Part shown: positions 15,916-34,249 of the stretch, one piece after another
Position numbering within the stretch: the first letter of the stretch is position 1
Layout of the letters: each line of letters starts with the position of its first letter
Assembly: GCA_029210875.1 (NCBI GenBank)
Contig: JARGFJ010000001.1
Location: 1-64,000 of the forward strand
Source of the DNA: Gammaproteobacteria bacterium
Lineage (GTDB): Bacteria; Pseudomonadota; Gammaproteobacteria; Nitrosococcales; Methylophagaceae
Reading direction: 5' to 3'
DNA: 64,000 bases
Position numbers and translations under genes: made by a program
The notes under the pieces: generated by a model
The model's input: only the letters and a program-made list of their open reading frames with translations
Told to the model about the DNA's origin: nothing
Databases searched by the model: none

Positions 15916-16902
15916 CTAGAACACACTAACGGCCTGTGATTTGAAGCTTATCCAGATGTTTTGTCCCAACTCAAGTTTTAACTCTTGTAATGAGCTGTGG
16001 GTGATGATTGCGTGGAAACGTTCCTGGCAGTCAACGGTCACTCTAACTTCATTTGCCTCTTCTGCAATACTGATAATTCTTCCTTGAAACTGATTTCTCA
16101 TGCTGGATCTAATTGCTTGATGTGACACGATAATTTCATGGGGATCGATAGCAATATGACGACCTTTATGTTGCATTGAATTAGTGTGAATGTGCAATTT
16201 TCCGGTATCAAAAATAGCCTGTTTTAACGTGCCATCATAGACATTTATTAGTGGACTTTTTGTGGTTTTGCCATCAACAAGATTGATTACATCATCTGCT
16301 AAAGCCCGACCTTGTAAGCGATTATGTGTTGAAAAAATGACCGTTGTTTGTGTTTGATGAGCAAGCTGCGCAATAATCGTTTCCAATACCTGACTGTGAC
16401 TTTGGTCGAGGTGAGAGAATGGCTCGTCCAGCAATAAAATTTCTGGGTGATAACTGATGGCACGGGCAATGGCAGCACGTTTTAGTTCACCACCTGATAA
16501 GGTGCTGGCCGCTTGATTGACTAAGTGTGTTAGCCCAACTTGCTCTAAGGCCTCGGTGATTAAACGTGGATGCCTTTTAGTTTCAATGTTTTGTAGTTTT
16601 AGCGCCAGACGAATATTATCACTAACCGTACCTGATAATAAGAAAGGATGTTGACTGACATAACCTATTTTACAACGTTGAGCTGGTAACAAGGGTAGTG
16701 TTACTGGCATTCCACTTAGGAAAACCTTGCCCTCACTTGGTGTTTTAATGAAGGCTAATAGGTCGAGCAAGGTTGATTTACCAGCACCATTATCTCCAAA
16801 TAAGGCGATGCAATCTGATTTAGGCAAGATAAGAGAGGGGATATCAAGGATACAGTTTTGCTGGCGAAACACCTTGATATTGTGTAATTCATAGGCGGTC
16901 AT
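15916..16902 (-). CDS. tupC: Tungstate/molybdate-type ABC transporter ATPase
   Basis: A 328-residue ABC ATPase with Walker A GDNGAGKST near residue 36, signature LSGGELKRAA near 138, and Walker B ILLLDEPFSHLD near 158. After the ATPase core a C-terminal extension (about 265-328) resembles the TOBE/Mop oxyanion-binding domain, as in ModC and TupC. It overlaps the permease gene by four bases. The assignment to tungstate rests on the permease type; molybdate cannot be excluded. No solute-binding protein gene lies adjacent. Confidence 0.75.
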   Translation of the reverse strand: MTAYELHNIKVFRQQNCILDIPSLILPKSDCIALFGDNGAGKSTLLDLLAFIKTPSEGKVFLSGMPVTLPLLPAQRCKIGYVSQHPFLLSGTVSDNIRLALKLQNIETKRHPRLITEALEQVGLTHLVNQAASTLSGGELKRAAIARAISYHPEILLLDEPFSHLDQSHSQVLETIIAQLAHQTQTTVIFSTHNRLQGRALADDVINLVDGKTTKSPLINVYDGTLKQAIFDTGKLHIHTNSMQHKGRHIAIDPHEIIVSHQAIRSSMRNQFQGRIISIAEEANEVRVTVDCQERFHAIITHSSLQELKLELGQNIWISFKSQAVSVF

Positions 16903-17591
16903 GGTTGTGCTCTCTGTAACCAGGATAGCAAGAAGTTAATGCCAAACGCGATGAATAACAACAGTAAACCTAAGGCCAAACCAACTTCAAATTCGCCTTT
17001 GCTGGTTTCCAGAGCAATAGCGGTGGTCATGGTTCGAGTATAACCTTCAATATTTCCGCCCAACATCATGGCTGCACCGACTTCACCAATGGCACGACCA
17101 AACCCGGCGATCACGGCAGCTAAAATAGCAAAGCGACATTGTTTGATGACGTGAAAAAGTAATTGTCCAGGTTTGGCACCTAAACTAATTAAAGTGGGTA
17201 CCAAACGCGTATCGCTTGAGGTGACAGCGACTACAGTTAAATTCATCATGATCGGGAAAATTAATATCGCTTCTGCCATGATTACGGCTGTTGGCGTATA
17301 AAGTAATTGCAAATAGCCAAGCGGGCCTAAGCGACTAAACAAGCCATAGAGCAATAAGCCAATAACAACCGTTGGCAGGGCCATCAAGGTATTAAGCAGA
17401 TGCTGCAATAGGTGTTTGCCACGAAAGTCATGAAGCCCCATCAGTGTTCCAGCAGGCACAGCAGCTGTTGCTGCAATAATCGCAGCAACGATGGATATTG
17501 ATAAAGAGGTAATAACAATGTGATAAATGTCTTTATCAAATGACGTTATCAACGCTAGTGCTGTAGAAAGTGAATCAGCAAAATAGCTCAT
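16899..17591 (-). CDS. tupB: Tungstate-type ABC transporter permease
   Basis: A 230-residue permease with about five or six helices and the binding-protein-dependent permease loop GFGRAIGEVGAAMMLGGN near residue 160, where the EAA-type loop sits. The phrase TRTMTTAIALETSKGEF is typical of TupB. It lies 18 nt after metF on the same strand, so it may be co-transcribed with metF. The periplasmic TupA gene, normally first in such operons, is not here, so the transporter would need a binding protein encoded elsewhere. Confidence 0.78.
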   Translation of the reverse strand: MSYFADSLSTALALITSFDKDIYHIVITSLSISIVAAIIAATAAVPAGTLMGLHDFRGKHLLQHLLNTLMALPTVVIGLLLYGLFSRLGPLGYLQLLYTPTAVIMAEAILIFPIMMNLTVVAVTSSDTRLVPTLISLGAKPGQLLFHVIKQCRFAILAAVIAGFGRAIGEVGAAMMLGGNIEGYTRTMTTAIALETSKGEFEVGLALGLLLLFIAFGINFLLSWLQRAQP

Positions 17592-17609: not shown

Positions 17610-18461
17610 TTAGCGGATAAGTCCAAGGCGTTGACAGATGGTCAATGTCGGATCAACACGATTCATCGTGTAAAAATGCAAACCAGGCACACCAACATCA
17701 ATCAACTTTTGAGTAAAATCAGTTAAAAAGTCCAAGGTAAAGGCTTGTAGTGATTCAGTATCATCATGAAATTCTTCTAAACGTTTACGTAACCAACGTG
17801 GAATTTCAGCACCACAGCCCTCTGAAAAACGGGCTAACTGAGAATAATTATTTATCGGCATAATGCCAGGAACAATAGGGATATCAATTTGATTTGCTTG
17901 GCAACGATCAACAAAATAGCGATAAGCATCAATATTATAAAAATATTGTGTTAAGGCGCTGTTGGCTCCCGCCTCGACTTTTCGTTTGAAGTTAAGCAAG
18001 TCAGCGTGTGCTGAGTTCGCTTGAGGATGAACTTCAGGATAGGTCGCCACTTCAATTGAGAAATGATCGCCTGTTTCCTTGCGAATAAATTCAACCAGTT
18101 CATTGGCATATCGAAAATCGCCAGGGTCACGCATTCCCGAGGGTAAATCACCACGTAGTGCGACTAAACGTCGAATGCCATTATCTTTATAAGTGGCAAG
18201 TATGTCGCGCAGACGTTCAGTTGTCGAACCGACACAAGATAGATGAGGAGCAGCATCAATGCCCGTTCTAGCTTGATCTTGTTGAATTTCGACGACGGCA
18301 TCTAAAGTATTTTCTTGTGTCGAACCGCCGGCACCAAAAGTAACCGAATAAAATTCCGATTTGAGGGGTATTAGGCGCTCACGTACGGCACGCATGTTTT
18401 CAATACCTTTATCGGTTTTAGGAGGGAAAAATTCGCAACTGATAGTGAGTTTATGTGACAT
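17610..18461 (-). CDS. metF: 5,10-methylenetetrahydrofolate reductase
   Basis: MetF reduces methylene-THF to methyl-THF, the methyl donor for methionine synthase. The 283 residues begin SHKLTISCEFFPPKTDKG, with catalytic Glu in EFFPPK, the FAD-binding region with GGSTQENT near residue 46 and HLSCVGST near 76, and LRGDLP near 106. The ATG lies only 22 nt after a strong intrinsic terminator that follows ahcY, and no good ribosome site precedes it, so expression seems to depend on terminator read-through or a promoter hidden in the terminator. Confidence 0.95.
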   Translation of the reverse strand: MSHKLTISCEFFPPKTDKGIENMRAVRERLIPLKSEFYSVTFGAGGSTQENTLDAVVEIQQDQARTGIDAAPHLSCVGSTTERLRDILATYKDNGIRRLVALRGDLPSGMRDPGDFRYANELVEFIRKETGDHFSIEVATYPEVHPQANSAHADLLNFKRKVEAGANSALTQYFYNIDAYRYFVDRCQANQIDIPIVPGIMPINNYSQLARFSEGCGAEIPRWLRKRLEEFHDDTESLQAFTLDFLTDFTQKLIDVGVPGLHFYTMNRVDPTLTICQRLGLIR

Positions 18462-18483: not shown

Positions 18484-18510
18484 AAAAAAAGGGCTAACCT
18501 AGGTTAGCCC
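18484..18510 (-). terminator. Intrinsic terminator after ahcY
   Basis: On the minus strand GGGCTAAC-CTAG-GTTAGCCC forms an 8-bp perfect stem with a four-base loop, directly followed by a run of seven or eight T residues. It starts 14 nt after the ahcY stop and ends 22 nt before the metF ATG. The structure is textbook; the placement leaves almost no space for a metF promoter. Confidence 0.9.
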
Positions 18511-18523
18511 AGTAGTTAAGTTT

Positions 18524-19828
18524 CTAGTAACGATAGTGATCAGGCTTGTAAGGGCCTTCTTTACTTAGGCTTAAGTATTTTGCCTGCTCATCGGTAAGTT
18601 CTGTTAATTGAGCGCCAATTTTACCTAAATGTAATCGTGCTACTTTCTCGTCTAACGACTTAGGTAGAACATAGACTTCATTTTTGTAGTTATCGCTATT
18701 GTGCCACAATTCAATTTGAGCCATGACCTGGTTACTAAACGATGCTGACATAACAAAGCTGGGATGACCGGTTGCACAACCTAAGTTTACCAAGCGACCT
18801 TCTGCTAACAGAGTGATGCGTTTGCCATCAGGGAAGATAACCTGATCTACCTGCGGTTTAACATTTTCCCACTGATATTGGCGTAATGATGCCACATCAA
18901 TTTCAGAATCAAAGTGACCGATATTACAGACGATAGCTTCATTTTTCATCGCTTTCATATGGTCATGGGTGATCACGCGCACATTACCAGTCGTTGTAAC
19001 AAAGATATCACCTAAAGCAGCGGCATCATCCATATTGACGATACGGTAGCCTTCCATTGCTGCTTGTAGCGCACAAATTGGATCGATTTCTGTCACCATG
19101 ACAGTTGCGCCCATGCCACGGAATGCTTGTGCACAGCCTTTACCGACATCACCATAACCTAAAACGACACAGATTTTGCCGGCAATCATGACGTCAGTTG
19201 CACGTTTAATCCCGTCTAATAATGATTCACGGCAACCGTATAAATTGTCGAATTTTGATTTTGTAACTGAGTCATTGACGTTGATTGCTGGTACTTTTAA
19301 TGAGCCGTCTTTCATCATTTCATAGAGACGATGCACACCAGTGGTGGTTTCTTCCGATAAGCCTTTAACATCAGCTAATAATTCCGGATAGTCATCATGC
19401 ATGATTTGCGTTAAATCACCGCCATCATCCAAAATGAGATTTGGTCGCCAGCCGTTAGGACCAAAAATAGTTTGTTTAATACACCAGATAGCTTCTTGTT
19501 CTGTTTCACCTTTCCAAGCAAAAACAGGAATAGCTTGAGCGGCAATAGCCGCGGCAGCTTGATCTTGGGTTGAGAAGATATTGCATGATGACCAACGTAC
19601 TTCTGCGCCAAGTTCTATCAGTGTTTCAATTAACACGGCAGTTTGAATGGTCATATGTAAGCAACCGGCAATCCGTGCGCCAGCTAATGGTTTGTTGCCA
19701 GCATATTCTTCGCGAATTGCCATTAAGCCAGGCATTTCTGTTTCAGCAATTTTGATTTCTTTTTTGCCCCAGTCAGCCAGATTCATATCGGCGACTTTAT
19801 AGTCAGGCGTAAGGTTCTCAATGGTCAT
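18524..19828 (-). CDS. ahcY: S-adenosylhomocysteine hydrolase
   Basis: AhcY splits S-adenosylhomocysteine to adenosine and homocysteine, removing the inhibitor of methyltransferases. The 434 residues carry [13 protein letters not shown] and [16 protein letters not shown] near 183-212, the NAD-binding [14 protein letters not shown] near 224, and the conserved C-terminal PDHYRY. The bacterial 40-residue insertion of longer AhcY forms is not obvious at this length. It lies 102 nt downstream of metK, with a REP-like repeat between them, and ends at a strong terminator. Confidence 0.97.
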
Positions 19829-19930: not shown

Positions 19931-21091
19931 TTAGATACCGGCAGCATCACGTAATGTATCTGCCAGGTCGGTTCTTTCCCAAGTGAACTCAGGATTTTCA
20001 CGACCAAAATGACCATAGGCCGCTGTGGCTTGATAAATTGGGCGAATAAGATCGAGCATGTTGACGAGTCCAACTGGGCGCAAGTCAAAATGGTCACGTA
20101 CCAATGCTTCTAATTTTTCTGAACTGATCTTGCCGGTGCCAAACGTTTCGATACTGATTGATGTCGGCTGGGCAACACCGATAGCATATGAAACCTGGAT
20201 TTCGCAACGATCAGCCAGACCGGCAGCAACAATATTTTTGGCAACATAACGTCCGGCATAGGCTGCACTGCGATCTACTTTTGATGGATCTTTACCTGAA
20301 AAAGCACCACCACCATGACGCGCCATACCGCCGTAGGTATCAACAATGATTTTACGACCGGTTAAGCCACAATCACCGACAGGACCGCCGATAATAAATT
20401 GACCTGTTGGGTTGATATGAAAAGCAGTGTCTTTCGTAATCCATTGTTCAGGTAATGTTGGTTTGATGATAACTTCCATCACCGCTTCTTTAATATCGGC
20501 TTGAGAAATATCAGGGTTATGTTGAGTAGATAAGACTACAGCATCGATACCAACCGGTTTACCATCTTCATAAACAAAGGTTATTTGGCTTTTGGCATCA
20601 GGACGAAGCCAGGGTAATGTGCCATTTTTACGCACTTCTGCTTGGCGTTTTACTAAACGATGAGCATAAGTAATGGCTGCGGGCATTAAAACGTCAGTTT
20701 CATTACTGGCATAACCAAACATTAAACCTTGGTCACCAGCACCCTGATCTTCAGGTTTATCACGATCAACACCCATTGCAATATCACTGGATTGTTTGCC
20801 AATCAACGACATGACGGCACAGGTCTGACCATCAAAACCGACTTCAGAACTGTTATAACCAATATCGGTAATGGTTTTGCGAACGACATCTTCTAAATCA
20901 ACCCAGGCTGAGGTGGTGATTTCACCAGCAACAATAGCCGCACCAGTTTTAATCAACGTTTCACACGCAACACGTGCATTAGGATCTTGGCGAAGAATTT
21001 CATCTAAAACCGCATCAGAAATCTGATCGGCAACTTTATCTGGATGGCCTTCTGAAACGGATTCAGAAGTAAAAATTGAACGGTTACTCAT
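19931..21091 (-). CDS. metK: S-adenosylmethionine synthetase
   Basis: MetK makes SAM from methionine and ATP. The 386 residues from [19 protein letters not shown] include the ATP-binding GHPDK, the methionine-site [12 protein letters not shown] near residue 116 and the P-loop-like [16 protein letters not shown] near 260. I chose the ATG at 21091 because a TGAGGC ribosome site lies nine bases before it; a TTG two codons upstream is the longer alternative. The gene lies behind an SAH riboswitch, upstream of ahcY and metF, giving a methyl-cycle operon. Confidence 0.97.
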
Positions 21092-21167
21092 AAACAATAT
21101 GCCTCATTACTTGAATGATGTAGTTAATGAGTGTTGGCGAAGATGATGATGTAGACTGCTCGGACAA

Positions 21168-21199
21168 CGCTCATTATTACTATTTGTAAATAATGAGCG
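21168..21199 (-). promoter_or_regulatory. Alternative hairpin, likely expression platform of the SAH riboswitch
   Basis: On the minus strand CGCTCATTATT (21199-21189) pairs perfectly with AATAATGAGCG (21178-21168), an 11-bp stem with a ten-base loop. Its first arm reuses CGCTC of the riboswitch pseudoknot strand (21195-21200). The hairpin and the pseudoknot therefore exclude one another. No T-run follows, so it is not a plain intrinsic terminator; how the switch is transmitted to translation or Rho is open. Confidence 0.7.
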
Positions 21200-21258
21200 C
21201 GGTTAAAAAATTATGTGAATAAGCCTAGCAGGAAAACCTGTTGCAGCGCTCCTTATTC
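21195..21258 (-). ncRNA. S-adenosylhomocysteine (SAH) riboswitch aptamer
   Basis: The minus-strand sequence has the SAH-aptamer core GGAGCGCTGCAAC, then a small CAGG-TTTT-CCTG hairpin, TAGGCTT, and AACCGCGCTCA. P1 is GAATAAG (21258-21252) with CTTATTC (21223-21217), seven perfect pairs. The pseudoknot is GAGCGC with GCGCTC (21200-21195). This agrees with the known SAH riboswitch layout, which turns genes on when SAH builds up. It starts about three bases after the predicted transcription start. Its first gene here is metK, followed by ahcY. Confidence 0.9.
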
Positions 21259-21267
21259 AGATTCGGA

Positions 21268-21296
21268 ATTCTAGTACTTTTGGGCATAAAAGACAA
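21268..21296 (-). promoter_or_regulatory. Sigma-70 promoter for metK-ahcY
   Basis: Minus strand -35 TTGTCT (21296-21291) and -10 TAGAAT (21273-21268) are separated by 17 bases. Predicted start is near 21261, just in front of the riboswitch P1 helix, which supports the call. Confidence 0.7.
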
Positions 21297-31075: not shown

Positions 31076-31711
31076 TTATGCTGCGTCAACTAAAGCACGT
31101 AATTCTTTAGCAGATTCTGCTGGAGAAGGAGCGCCATAGATAGCCGCGCCAACAACAACGATTGCAGCACCAGCTTGAACTGTGCTTTGGATAGTATCTT
31201 TGTTGATGCCACCAGCAACAGAAATTTTAACGTCTAAGCCTAAGCCAGCGATCAATTTAAGATCTTCAAAAGGTGTTTGACCTGCGGCTTGTGCATCAAG
31301 ACCAGTGTGAACACCGATGATTTGAGCACCGTTTGCAGCAGCAGCTTTAGCAACAGCAGCTTTATCTTCAACACCAATTAAATCGATTTGAGCTTCAGCG
31401 TTATTAGCGTTAGCAGCTTTGATAACACCGTTGATTGTAGCCATATCAGCAGCACCCAAAACTGTAGTGATATCACCACCAGCTTCGAAGAAAGGAGTTG
31501 CTTCGTATTCACCCGCATCCATTGTTTTAAGGTCAACAAGGATTTTTTTATCAGGGTGAGCAGCTTTTAATGCTTTAACAAGCTTAAGACCGTTGTATTT
31601 AATGCAAGGTGTTCCGATTTCTAGAATGTCAACATAAGGTGCAACTGCTTCTGCTAAAGCCATAGTTGCGTCGAAGTCTAGAGAATCTAGAGCCATTTGG
31701 ATTTCTGCCAT
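31076..31711 (-). CDS. hps: 3-hexulose-6-phosphate synthase, copy 1
   Basis: HPS condenses formaldehyde with ribulose-5-phosphate, the fixing step of the RuMP cycle. The 211-residue TIM barrel shows ALDSLDFDATMALAEAVAPY at the start, EIGTPCIKYNG, LVDLKTMDAGEYEA with the metal-binding acidic residues near 58-66, VHTGLDAQ near 135 and SVAGGINKDT. I chose the second ATG (31711): AGGAG lies seven bases before it, whereas it nearly touches the first ATG. By eye about 85% identical to the second copy at 33608. Confidence 0.95.
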   Translation of the reverse strand: MAEIQMALDSLDFDATMALAEAVAPYVDILEIGTPCIKYNGLKLVKALKAAHPDKKILVDLKTMDAGEYEATPFFEAGGDITTVLGAADMATINGVIKAANANNAEAQIDLIGVEDKAAVAKAAAANGAQIIGVHTGLDAQAAGQTPFEDLKLIAGLGLDVKISVAGGINKDTIQSTVQAGAAIVVVGAAIYGAPSPAESAKELRALVDAA

Positions 31712-31769
31712 GATCATACTCCTAAAGTATTTTATTTTATTATTTCACGTTCAATTACGCGGGTTTCGA

Positions 31770-31887: not shown

Positions 31888-32871
31888 TTAAGCTTCGATT
31901 TCAGCTAGACGATTTGCTAATAACGCTTCAAGCGCTTCTAGTGCTTTTGCAAAACCATCAATACCTTCTGATAATTTTTCAGTCGCCATACGATCAGCGG
32001 CGTGCATCGCATCAAATGTTGCTTTATCCATATCGATTTTTTCAATATCAGATGCTGCCGCTTGTGCTGGAGATAATTTACGAACTAATTCGCCTTCTGT
32101 TGATTGTAATTCATCAAGCAAGCCAGGAGAAATTGTTAATAAATCAACACCAGCTAATTCTGTTATTTCACCAACGTTACGGAAGCTAGCGCCCATAACT
32201 TCGGTTTTATAACCAAATTTTTTGAAATAGTTATAAATTGCAGTTACAGAAACAACACCTGGATCTTCAGCTGGTTCGTATGAATCACGACCAGTATCTT
32301 TTTTGTACCAATCAAGAATACGACCTACGAAAGGTGAAATTAATTGAATGCCATTCTCAGCACACGCAATAGCTTGGTGAAGACCAAATACTAATGTTAA
32401 GTTGGTGTGAATGCCTTCTTGTTCAAGCACTTTAGCTGCTTGAATACCTTCCCAAGTTGCTGCAACTTTGATTAAGATACGGTCACGCGAAACACCAGCG
32501 GCTTCATACTGAGCAATCAAATCACGACCTTTTTCAATTGTCGCATCAGTGTCATAAGACAATCTGGCATCAACTTCAGTTGAAACACGTTGTGGCACGA
32601 TGTCCAGAATTTTCAGACCAAATGAAACAGCTAAACGATCGAATGCCAGCGTAACAACTTCTGAAGCAGGTGCATTCGCTCCGACAGTGGCACGAGCGCC
32701 TTTAAGTGTGTCATCAACGATGCTCTGATATTCAGGCATTTGAGCCGCAGCGGTGATTAAAGATGGATTTGTTGTTGCATCACGAGGTGTAAATTGTTGT
32801 ATTGCAGCAATATCACCAGTATCGGCAACAACAACTGTCATTTCTTTGAGTTGGTCTAGTAAATTTGCCAT
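31888..32871 (-). CDS. tal: Transaldolase
   Basis: Transaldolase moves a dihydroxyacetone unit between sugar phosphates and, in the RuMP cycle, helps regenerate ribulose-5-phosphate. The 327 residues are TalB-like: [15 protein letters not shown] near 29, [20 protein letters not shown] near 128 with the Schiff-base lysine, and [18 protein letters not shown] near 155. It sits 177 nt upstream of hps copy 1, separated by a terminator, so it is probably its own unit. Confidence 0.96.
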
Positions 32872-33607: not shown

Positions 33608-34249
33608 TTATGCTGCATCTACTAATGCGCGCAATTCTTTAGCAGATTCTGCTGGAGAAGGAGCGCCATAGATAGCTGCGCCAACAACAACGATAGTTGC
33701 GCCAGCTTGAATTGTGCTTTGGATAGTGTCTTTGTTGATACCACCAGCAACTGAGATGCGAACACCTAAGTTTAAGTCAGCAATTAATTTAAGATCAGCA
33801 AATGGTGTTTGACCCGCTGCTTGTGCATCAAGACCAGTGTGAACACCGATGATTTGCGCACCGTTTGCTGCTGCTTGAGTTGCACATGCTGCTTTATCTT
33901 TAACACTGATTAAGTCGATTTGAGCTTCAGCGTTGTTTGCGTTCGCTGCTTTAATAACACCGCCCATAGTAGCTTTGTCAGAAACACCTAATACTGTGCA
34001 GATATCTGCACCAGCTTCGTAGAAAGGCGTTGCTTCGTATTCACCAGCATCCATTGTTTTAAGGTCAACAAGGATTAATTTTTCTGGGAATTTTGCTTTT
34101 AATGCAGTTACAAGTTCAAGACCGTTGTACTTGATGCAAGGTGTACCGATTTCCAAGATATCAACATAAGGTGCTACTTGCTCTGCAAGTGCAATAGTTG
34201 CGTCGAAATCTAGAGAATCTAGAGCCATTTGGATAAGTGCTTTTGCCAT
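33608..34249 (-). CDS. hps: 3-hexulose-6-phosphate synthase, copy 2
   Basis: A second, complete HPS of 213 residues with every motif of the first copy (EIGTPCIKYNG, LVDLKTMDAGEYEA, VHTGLDAQ, SVAGGINKDT). The last 60 residues of the two copies are nearly identical, while most differences cluster in residues 45-130. It has its own promoter and terminator and no phi gene, so it is a monocistronic duplicate. AGGAG precedes the ATG by eight bases. Two hps genes probably raise formaldehyde-fixing capacity or allow separate control; which one is inference. Confidence 0.95.
   Translation of the reverse strand: MAKALIQMALDSLDFDATIALAEQVAPYVDILEIGTPCIKYNGLELVTALKAKFPEKLILVDLKTMDAGEYEATPFYEAGADICTVLGVSDKATMGGVIKAANANNAEAQIDLISVKDKAACATQAAANGAQIIGVHTGLDAQAAGQTPFADLKLIADLNLGVRISVAGGINKDTIQSTIQAGATIVVVGAAIYGAPSPAESAKELRALVDAA

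Follow-up and report, generated by a model that had tools for sequence, protein, structure and literature searches.

A SAH riboswitch ahead of metK in Methylophagaceae, a probable translational ON switch of the metK-ahcY transcript

Introduction

The window analysed here, a 64,000-nucleotide stretch from a gammaproteobacterium of the family Methylophagaceae, carries an element of the SAH riboswitch class (Rfam RF01057), reportedly described by Wang et al. in 2008, and the gene that follows it is metK, encoding SAM synthetase, rather than ahcY. This position raises the question of what a sensor of SAH does in front of a gene for SAM synthesis. In the searched text of the survey by Leyn et al. 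(2014; PMC4239095), which covers about 200 proteobacterial genomes, SAH riboswitches always precede ahcY, the listed targets are ahcY, metF, metH and a few taxon-specific genes, metK is explicitly left uncontrolled, and Methylophaga is not mentioned. The literature that we searched, an incomplete set that did not include the 2008 paper, held no earlier report of a SAH riboswitch ahead of metK.

Results

A cmscan search of the window against 4227 families placed RF01057 on the minus strand at 21260..21188 (56.6 bits, E = 9.3e-8; the gathering cut-off of this family is 37 bits), along the full length of the model (1-78), and this Infernal result confirmed the class proposed in an initial annotation made from the letters. 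At gathering cut-offs RF01057 was the only family matched in the window, and none of the SAM families, RF01727 and RF01724 included, was found. It was also the sole RF01057 match in the 2.44-Mb genome (E = 8.3e-10), and none of 14 control genomes was positive. The parts named at the outset are all present on the minus strand: a 7-bp P1 (UGAAUAA, 21259-21253, with UUAUUCA, 21222-21216), the P2 hairpin (CAGG/CCUG), and an H-type pseudoknot in which GAGCGC (21246..21251) pairs with GCGCUC (21200-21195). The latter strand, followed by the tail AUUAUU, is the switch strand (P). The interval first assigned to the riboswitch, 21168-21261, encloses the aptamer (21188-21260) but extends into an arm of a downstream hairpin (AAUAAUGAGCG, 21178-21168).

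The structure is supported by comparison of 43 distinct aptamers of the window's family, in which 97.7% of the cells kept pairing, whereas sliding the helix partners as a control reduced this value to 29-46%. Changes on both sides were observed in five pairs that represent all three helices; the one within the pseudoknot, at its third pair, is A-U in 36 aptamers and G-C in seven. The conserved core is present (GGAGCGCUGCAAC, AGGC, and AAC ahead of the pseudoknot strand) and is the same as in 135 ahcY-leader aptamers, save for CUAGGC in place of CCAGGC and a variable base preceding the pseudoknot strand. CUAGGC occurs in 44/48 metK-leader aptamers versus 7/135 ahcY-leader ones, most of which have CCAGGC, and the pseudoknot A-U pair replaces G-C in 39 of the 48, the window's own being G-C. 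Because most family members carry these two changes, affinity may differ from that of the ahcY-leader aptamers; judged from the sequences, the changes possibly reflect a re-tuned affinity, or ancestry alone. The element does not represent a new class but belongs to a known one, in which its main target is new and its expression platform is its own; its ligand is presumably SAH.

On the minus strand, the aptamer is followed by metK, as initially stated, and then by ahcY, which has no aptamer of its own, and metF. The products are a methionine adenosyltransferase of 386 aa (19931..21091, ATG at 21091; TIGR01034, 624.5 bits), an adenosylhomocysteinase of 434 aa (18524..19828; TIGR00936, 654.4 bits) and a methylenetetrahydrofolate reductase of 283 aa (17610..18461; TIGR00676, 319.6 bits), all above curated cut-offs. 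A promoter-like pair, TTGTCT and TAGAAT separated by 17 nt (21268..21296, minus strand), ends 7 nt ahead of P1; consensus matches are no more frequent in this region than in shuffles, and a single match is worth little. A −10-like hexamer lies upstream of P1 in 46/46 relatives, most often at 6-12 nt, and CTTG(T) further upstream is common to most of them. Given these shared elements, the transcript most likely starts at the aptamer, with a putative start at or beside P1.

Cotranscription of metK and ahcY appears probable, although the coupling of ahcY is not certain because the gap between the two genes is 102 nt in the window; this spacing is 23-36 nt in genus g3 of the same family. Between ahcY and metF we found a terminator-like hairpin, GGGCUAACCUAGGUUAGCCC, followed by seven T (18491..18510, minus strand). 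Most of the family relatives read have a similar hairpin, mostly with a T run of at least five, and it is absent in L042 and in L226, deposited as 'Piscirickettsiaceae bacterium CSMAG_555'. The coupling of the whole methyl cycle that had been proposed must be qualified accordingly: metF would be only partly coupled, since this hairpin splits it from ahcY, and is probably reached by read-through only. As the metF start lies within about 30 nt, the hairpin resembles an attenuator, not a full stop. Directly past metF lie ABC permease and ATPase genes (15916-17591, minus strand), nearest to tungstate/molybdate transporters and below the curated TupB and TupC cut-offs.

The survey of related genomes suggested at the outset showed that this order is the rule of the family. 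The sample comprised 57 genomes, 50 of them with a readable metK leader, and the aptamer lies directly ahead of metK in 48 of these 50. First-pass matches were obtained in 46 genomes, in all of which the order is aptamer, metK, ahcY, so that metK, not ahcY, comes first in the window and in 46/46 detected members. Six of the 11 genomes without a first-pass match had some metK sequence: G008 and G009 looked negative and revealed the aptamer on re-check, the aptamer is absent from G003 (a 1.1-Mb genome) and G022, which do have metK, and the two remaining ones, with partial metK only, fall outside the 50 readable leaders. In the G022 locus (L307), the sequence ahead of metK ends in a metallopeptidase-like gene, which in the window lies farther upstream, and the chemotaxis-protein gene and the riboswitch are apparently missing between them. 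Other members of the order had no SAH riboswitch.

Outside the family, the surroundings of SAH riboswitches were read in 171 further genomes, sampled across the class and the phylum. The usual order was metK, aptamer, ahcY (121 loci), in which metK is near but outside the control of the switch because the aptamer sits between the two genes. At 45 loci ahcY came first with no metK seen upstream, and a few aptamers preceded metH. Only 6/171 genomes had an aptamer ahead of metK, and this rarity, together with the exclusion of metK in the published survey (PMC4239095), bears out the view that the metK-first order is unusual. In four of these six, metK and ahcY each have an aptamer ahead of them: L106 (160-242 and 1440-1529, respectively), L107 (2001-2077 and 3273-3362) and L108 (2301-2379 and 3613-3712), which belong to one family, and L109 (5073-5001 and 3666-3584), which belongs to another. 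The other two, L117 and L118, are of L109's family and have a single aptamer, ahead of metK. A single aptamer ahead of metK is also found in the MAG 'Methylococcaceae bacterium UBA975' (L261). The two aptamers of L109 are 78% identical, no closer than a rather old copy would give. Tandem aptamers suggested by a regular expression in L094, L150, L223, L230 and L301 were false and were removed by the covariance-model search. In three genomes of one family (L110, 4001-4077 and 1851-2062; L113; L115), a SAH riboswitch lies about 2 kb from a cobalamin riboswitch on the opposite strand, and in L110 the SAH aptamer precedes metH.

Downstream of the aptamer, two helices compete in the metK leader. In the hairpin H1 (21168..21199, minus strand), CGCUCAUUAUU (21199-21189) pairs with the arm at 21178-21168 and captures the pseudoknot strand; across the family its upstream arm consists of this strand and its tail, GCGYUCAUUAUU. 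Its mean energy in 42 distinct leaders was −13.3 kcal/mol, versus −5.0 kcal/mol with shuffled partners. In the alternative helix X (21125..21176, minus strand), UAAUGAGCGUUG (21176-21165) pairs with CAACACUCAUUA (21136-21125). The strands of X pair with their own partners at a mean of −15.0 kcal/mol, versus −11.3 kcal/mol when partners were swapped between genomes, and 0/5000 permutations were as good, which indicates that the two strands changed together. X also exists in a second, CAGGU-type sequence (CAGGUAACUGAUAGU with ACUAUCAUUACCU), present in 24/24 distinct leaders of this type at −34 to −46 from the start codon. H1 and X are mutually exclusive, as one arm is common to both. The Shine-Dalgarno strand GUAAUGAGG (21102..21110, minus strand) includes UAAUGAG, complementary to CUCAUUA (21131-21125) of helix X. 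As a general sequestrator of the Shine-Dalgarno sequence the helix-X segment was rejected, its pairing being no better than chance across the family. No intrinsic-terminator-like site was seen in the metK leader.

Constrained two-state folding predicted that, among 42 leaders, 20 gain openness at the Shine-Dalgarno sequence on the change from H1 to X and five lose it (Wilcoxon p = 0.005, a value that, like the one below, overstates independence because the leaders are related). In the window, the predicted unpaired fraction rose from 0.08 to 0.35 for the Shine-Dalgarno sequence and from 0.04 to 0.43 for the start codon. When the pseudoknot strand alone was blocked in equilibrium folding, the window's Shine-Dalgarno value went from 0.09 to 0.40, and to 0.22 with the arm blocked too; family-wide, this block had no consistent effect (13 up and 10 down of 46, p = 0.27). 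One other metK-first family shows complementarity between the pseudoknot strand (GCGCUCAGUCAU) and the start region of metK (AUGACUGAGGCG), which again fits an ON control of translation.

We take the window's family to be methanol-using bacteria. The window itself encodes two 3-hexulose-6-phosphate synthases (31076-31717 and 33608-34249) and a transaldolase (31888-32871), all on the minus strand, which point to the ribulose-monophosphate pathway. No hexulose-phosphate synthase above the cut-off was found in the two other metK-first families or in the MAG UBA975, and among the metK-first genomes outside the window's family a PQQ alcohol dehydrogenase above the cut-off occurred only in G125 and G399. 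Methylotrophy, the reason first offered for the metK-first order, was rejected as its cause, since the order also exists in genomes without ribulose-monophosphate genes and in ones with neither hexulose-phosphate synthase nor methanol dehydrogenase above the cut-off.

Discussion

Our preferred reading, with a probability of about 0.74, is that the SAH riboswitch heads the metK-ahcY transcript and, when SAH is bound, switches on the translation of metK. This is the best reading because of the two-state folding, the start-codon complementarity in another family and the leader's lack of a terminator; the ON direction proposed initially, in which SAH raises expression, stands as far as the logic of the sequence goes, and the opening of the metK ribosome site is suggested by the folding models. 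When SAH is high, the aptamer would fold and its pseudoknot would hold GCGCUC, so that H1 could not form and its freed arm would pair about 40 nt ahead of the start codon as helix X, upon which the metK ribosome site would open. When SAH is low, H1 would form, X would be lost and the ribosome site would be more closed. Being in the metK transcript, ahcY would probably be raised along with metK, and metF, behind the terminator-like hairpin, would receive part of the signal only.

A different mode of switching, at the level of transcription (through a Rho site that is uncovered or masked, for instance) or in the OFF direction, would be in keeping with the long, weakly structured stretches of the leader and with the lack of a consistent opening of the ribosome site when only the pseudoknot strand was blocked. 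We consider it unlikely, as the leader has no intrinsic-terminator-like site, the two-state folding favours opening, and the switch strand of another family could pair with the metK start codon. It could also be that the aptamer now reads SAM, or both SAM and SAH, so that SAM would turn metK down or up. The classic role of metK as a target of SAM-sensing RNAs, the SAM/SAH riboswitches that precede it in Rhodobacterales (PMC2864571) and the family-specific base change near the core would all agree with such a shift of ligand; yet the other single-stranded core positions are the canonical ones of ahcY leaders, the changed base also occurs in seven of the 135 ahcY-leader aptamers, RF01057 is the sole match with no SAM family beside it, and ahcY lies in the same unit as metK, which together make the shift highly improbable.

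The riboswitch could, on the other hand, serve mainly ahcY, metK being a passenger after an old rearrangement and its regulation having little physiological meaning. Since the order metK, riboswitch, ahcY is usual elsewhere, little change would be needed to bring the aptamer across metK, and in genus g3 ahcY follows close behind metK. This explanation seems distinctly unlikely to us, because the order has been retained in nearly all readable family leaders, the ribosome site adjoining the switch is that of metK, and each of the two genes has retained its own aptamer in four genomes outside the family, which suggests that control of metK was selected in its own right there. The simplest path would lead from an aptamer between metK and ahcY, through a copy placed ahead of metK, to the loss of the inner aptamer. 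A broader reading, to which we give even odds, is that aptamers were moved or copied from ahcY leaders to metK leaders in at least three lineages, making SAH an inducer of SAM synthesis through a purpose-built platform of pseudoknot strand and anti-strand, possibly with a re-tuned threshold. The arrangement aptamer-metK-aptamer-ahcY would be the intermediate of such transfers.

Compared with published RF01057 regulons (PMC4239095), the window has in common P1, P2, the pseudoknot, the core, the pathway, and ahcY and metF nearby, and it differs by having metK first and ahcY without its own aptamer. Because Leyn et al. deny control of metK (PMC4239095), the family is a genuine exception to their generalisation. 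SAH-responsive control of metK is not new as such: the core regulon of SahR, found in alpha-, delta- and some gammaproteobacteria, includes metK, and control there joins metK with ahcY and metF, as it would here (PMC4239095). SahR, however, is a DNA-binding protein regulator of other lineages, whereas the window has a leader RNA. Two RNAs invite comparison as well. The SAM/SAH riboswitch RF01727, which binds the two compounds equally and is presumed to answer to SAM, is also a sensor directly upstream of metK, in Rhodobacterales, and the SAM-Chlorobi motif RF01724, for which preliminary tests saw no binding of SAM or SAH, also leads operons of metK and ahcY (PMC2864571); RF01727 is a different RNA family and RF01724 an unrelated RNA, both unmatched in the window.

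The survey assigned the SAH control of metK to the protein SahR, and here an RNA is placed for that job, throughout one family and in scattered members of others. Three arrangements are now laid out, namely metK-switch-ahcY, switch-metK-switch-ahcY and switch-metK-ahcY. SAH inhibits methyltransferases by competing with SAM, and raising MetK and AhcY together would therefore bring the SAM:SAH ratio back through both of its terms, by making more SAM and by removing SAH, which offers a plainer rationale than methylotrophy. If this is true, these cells would raise SAM synthesis in response to the by-product of methylation, not to a shortage of SAM.
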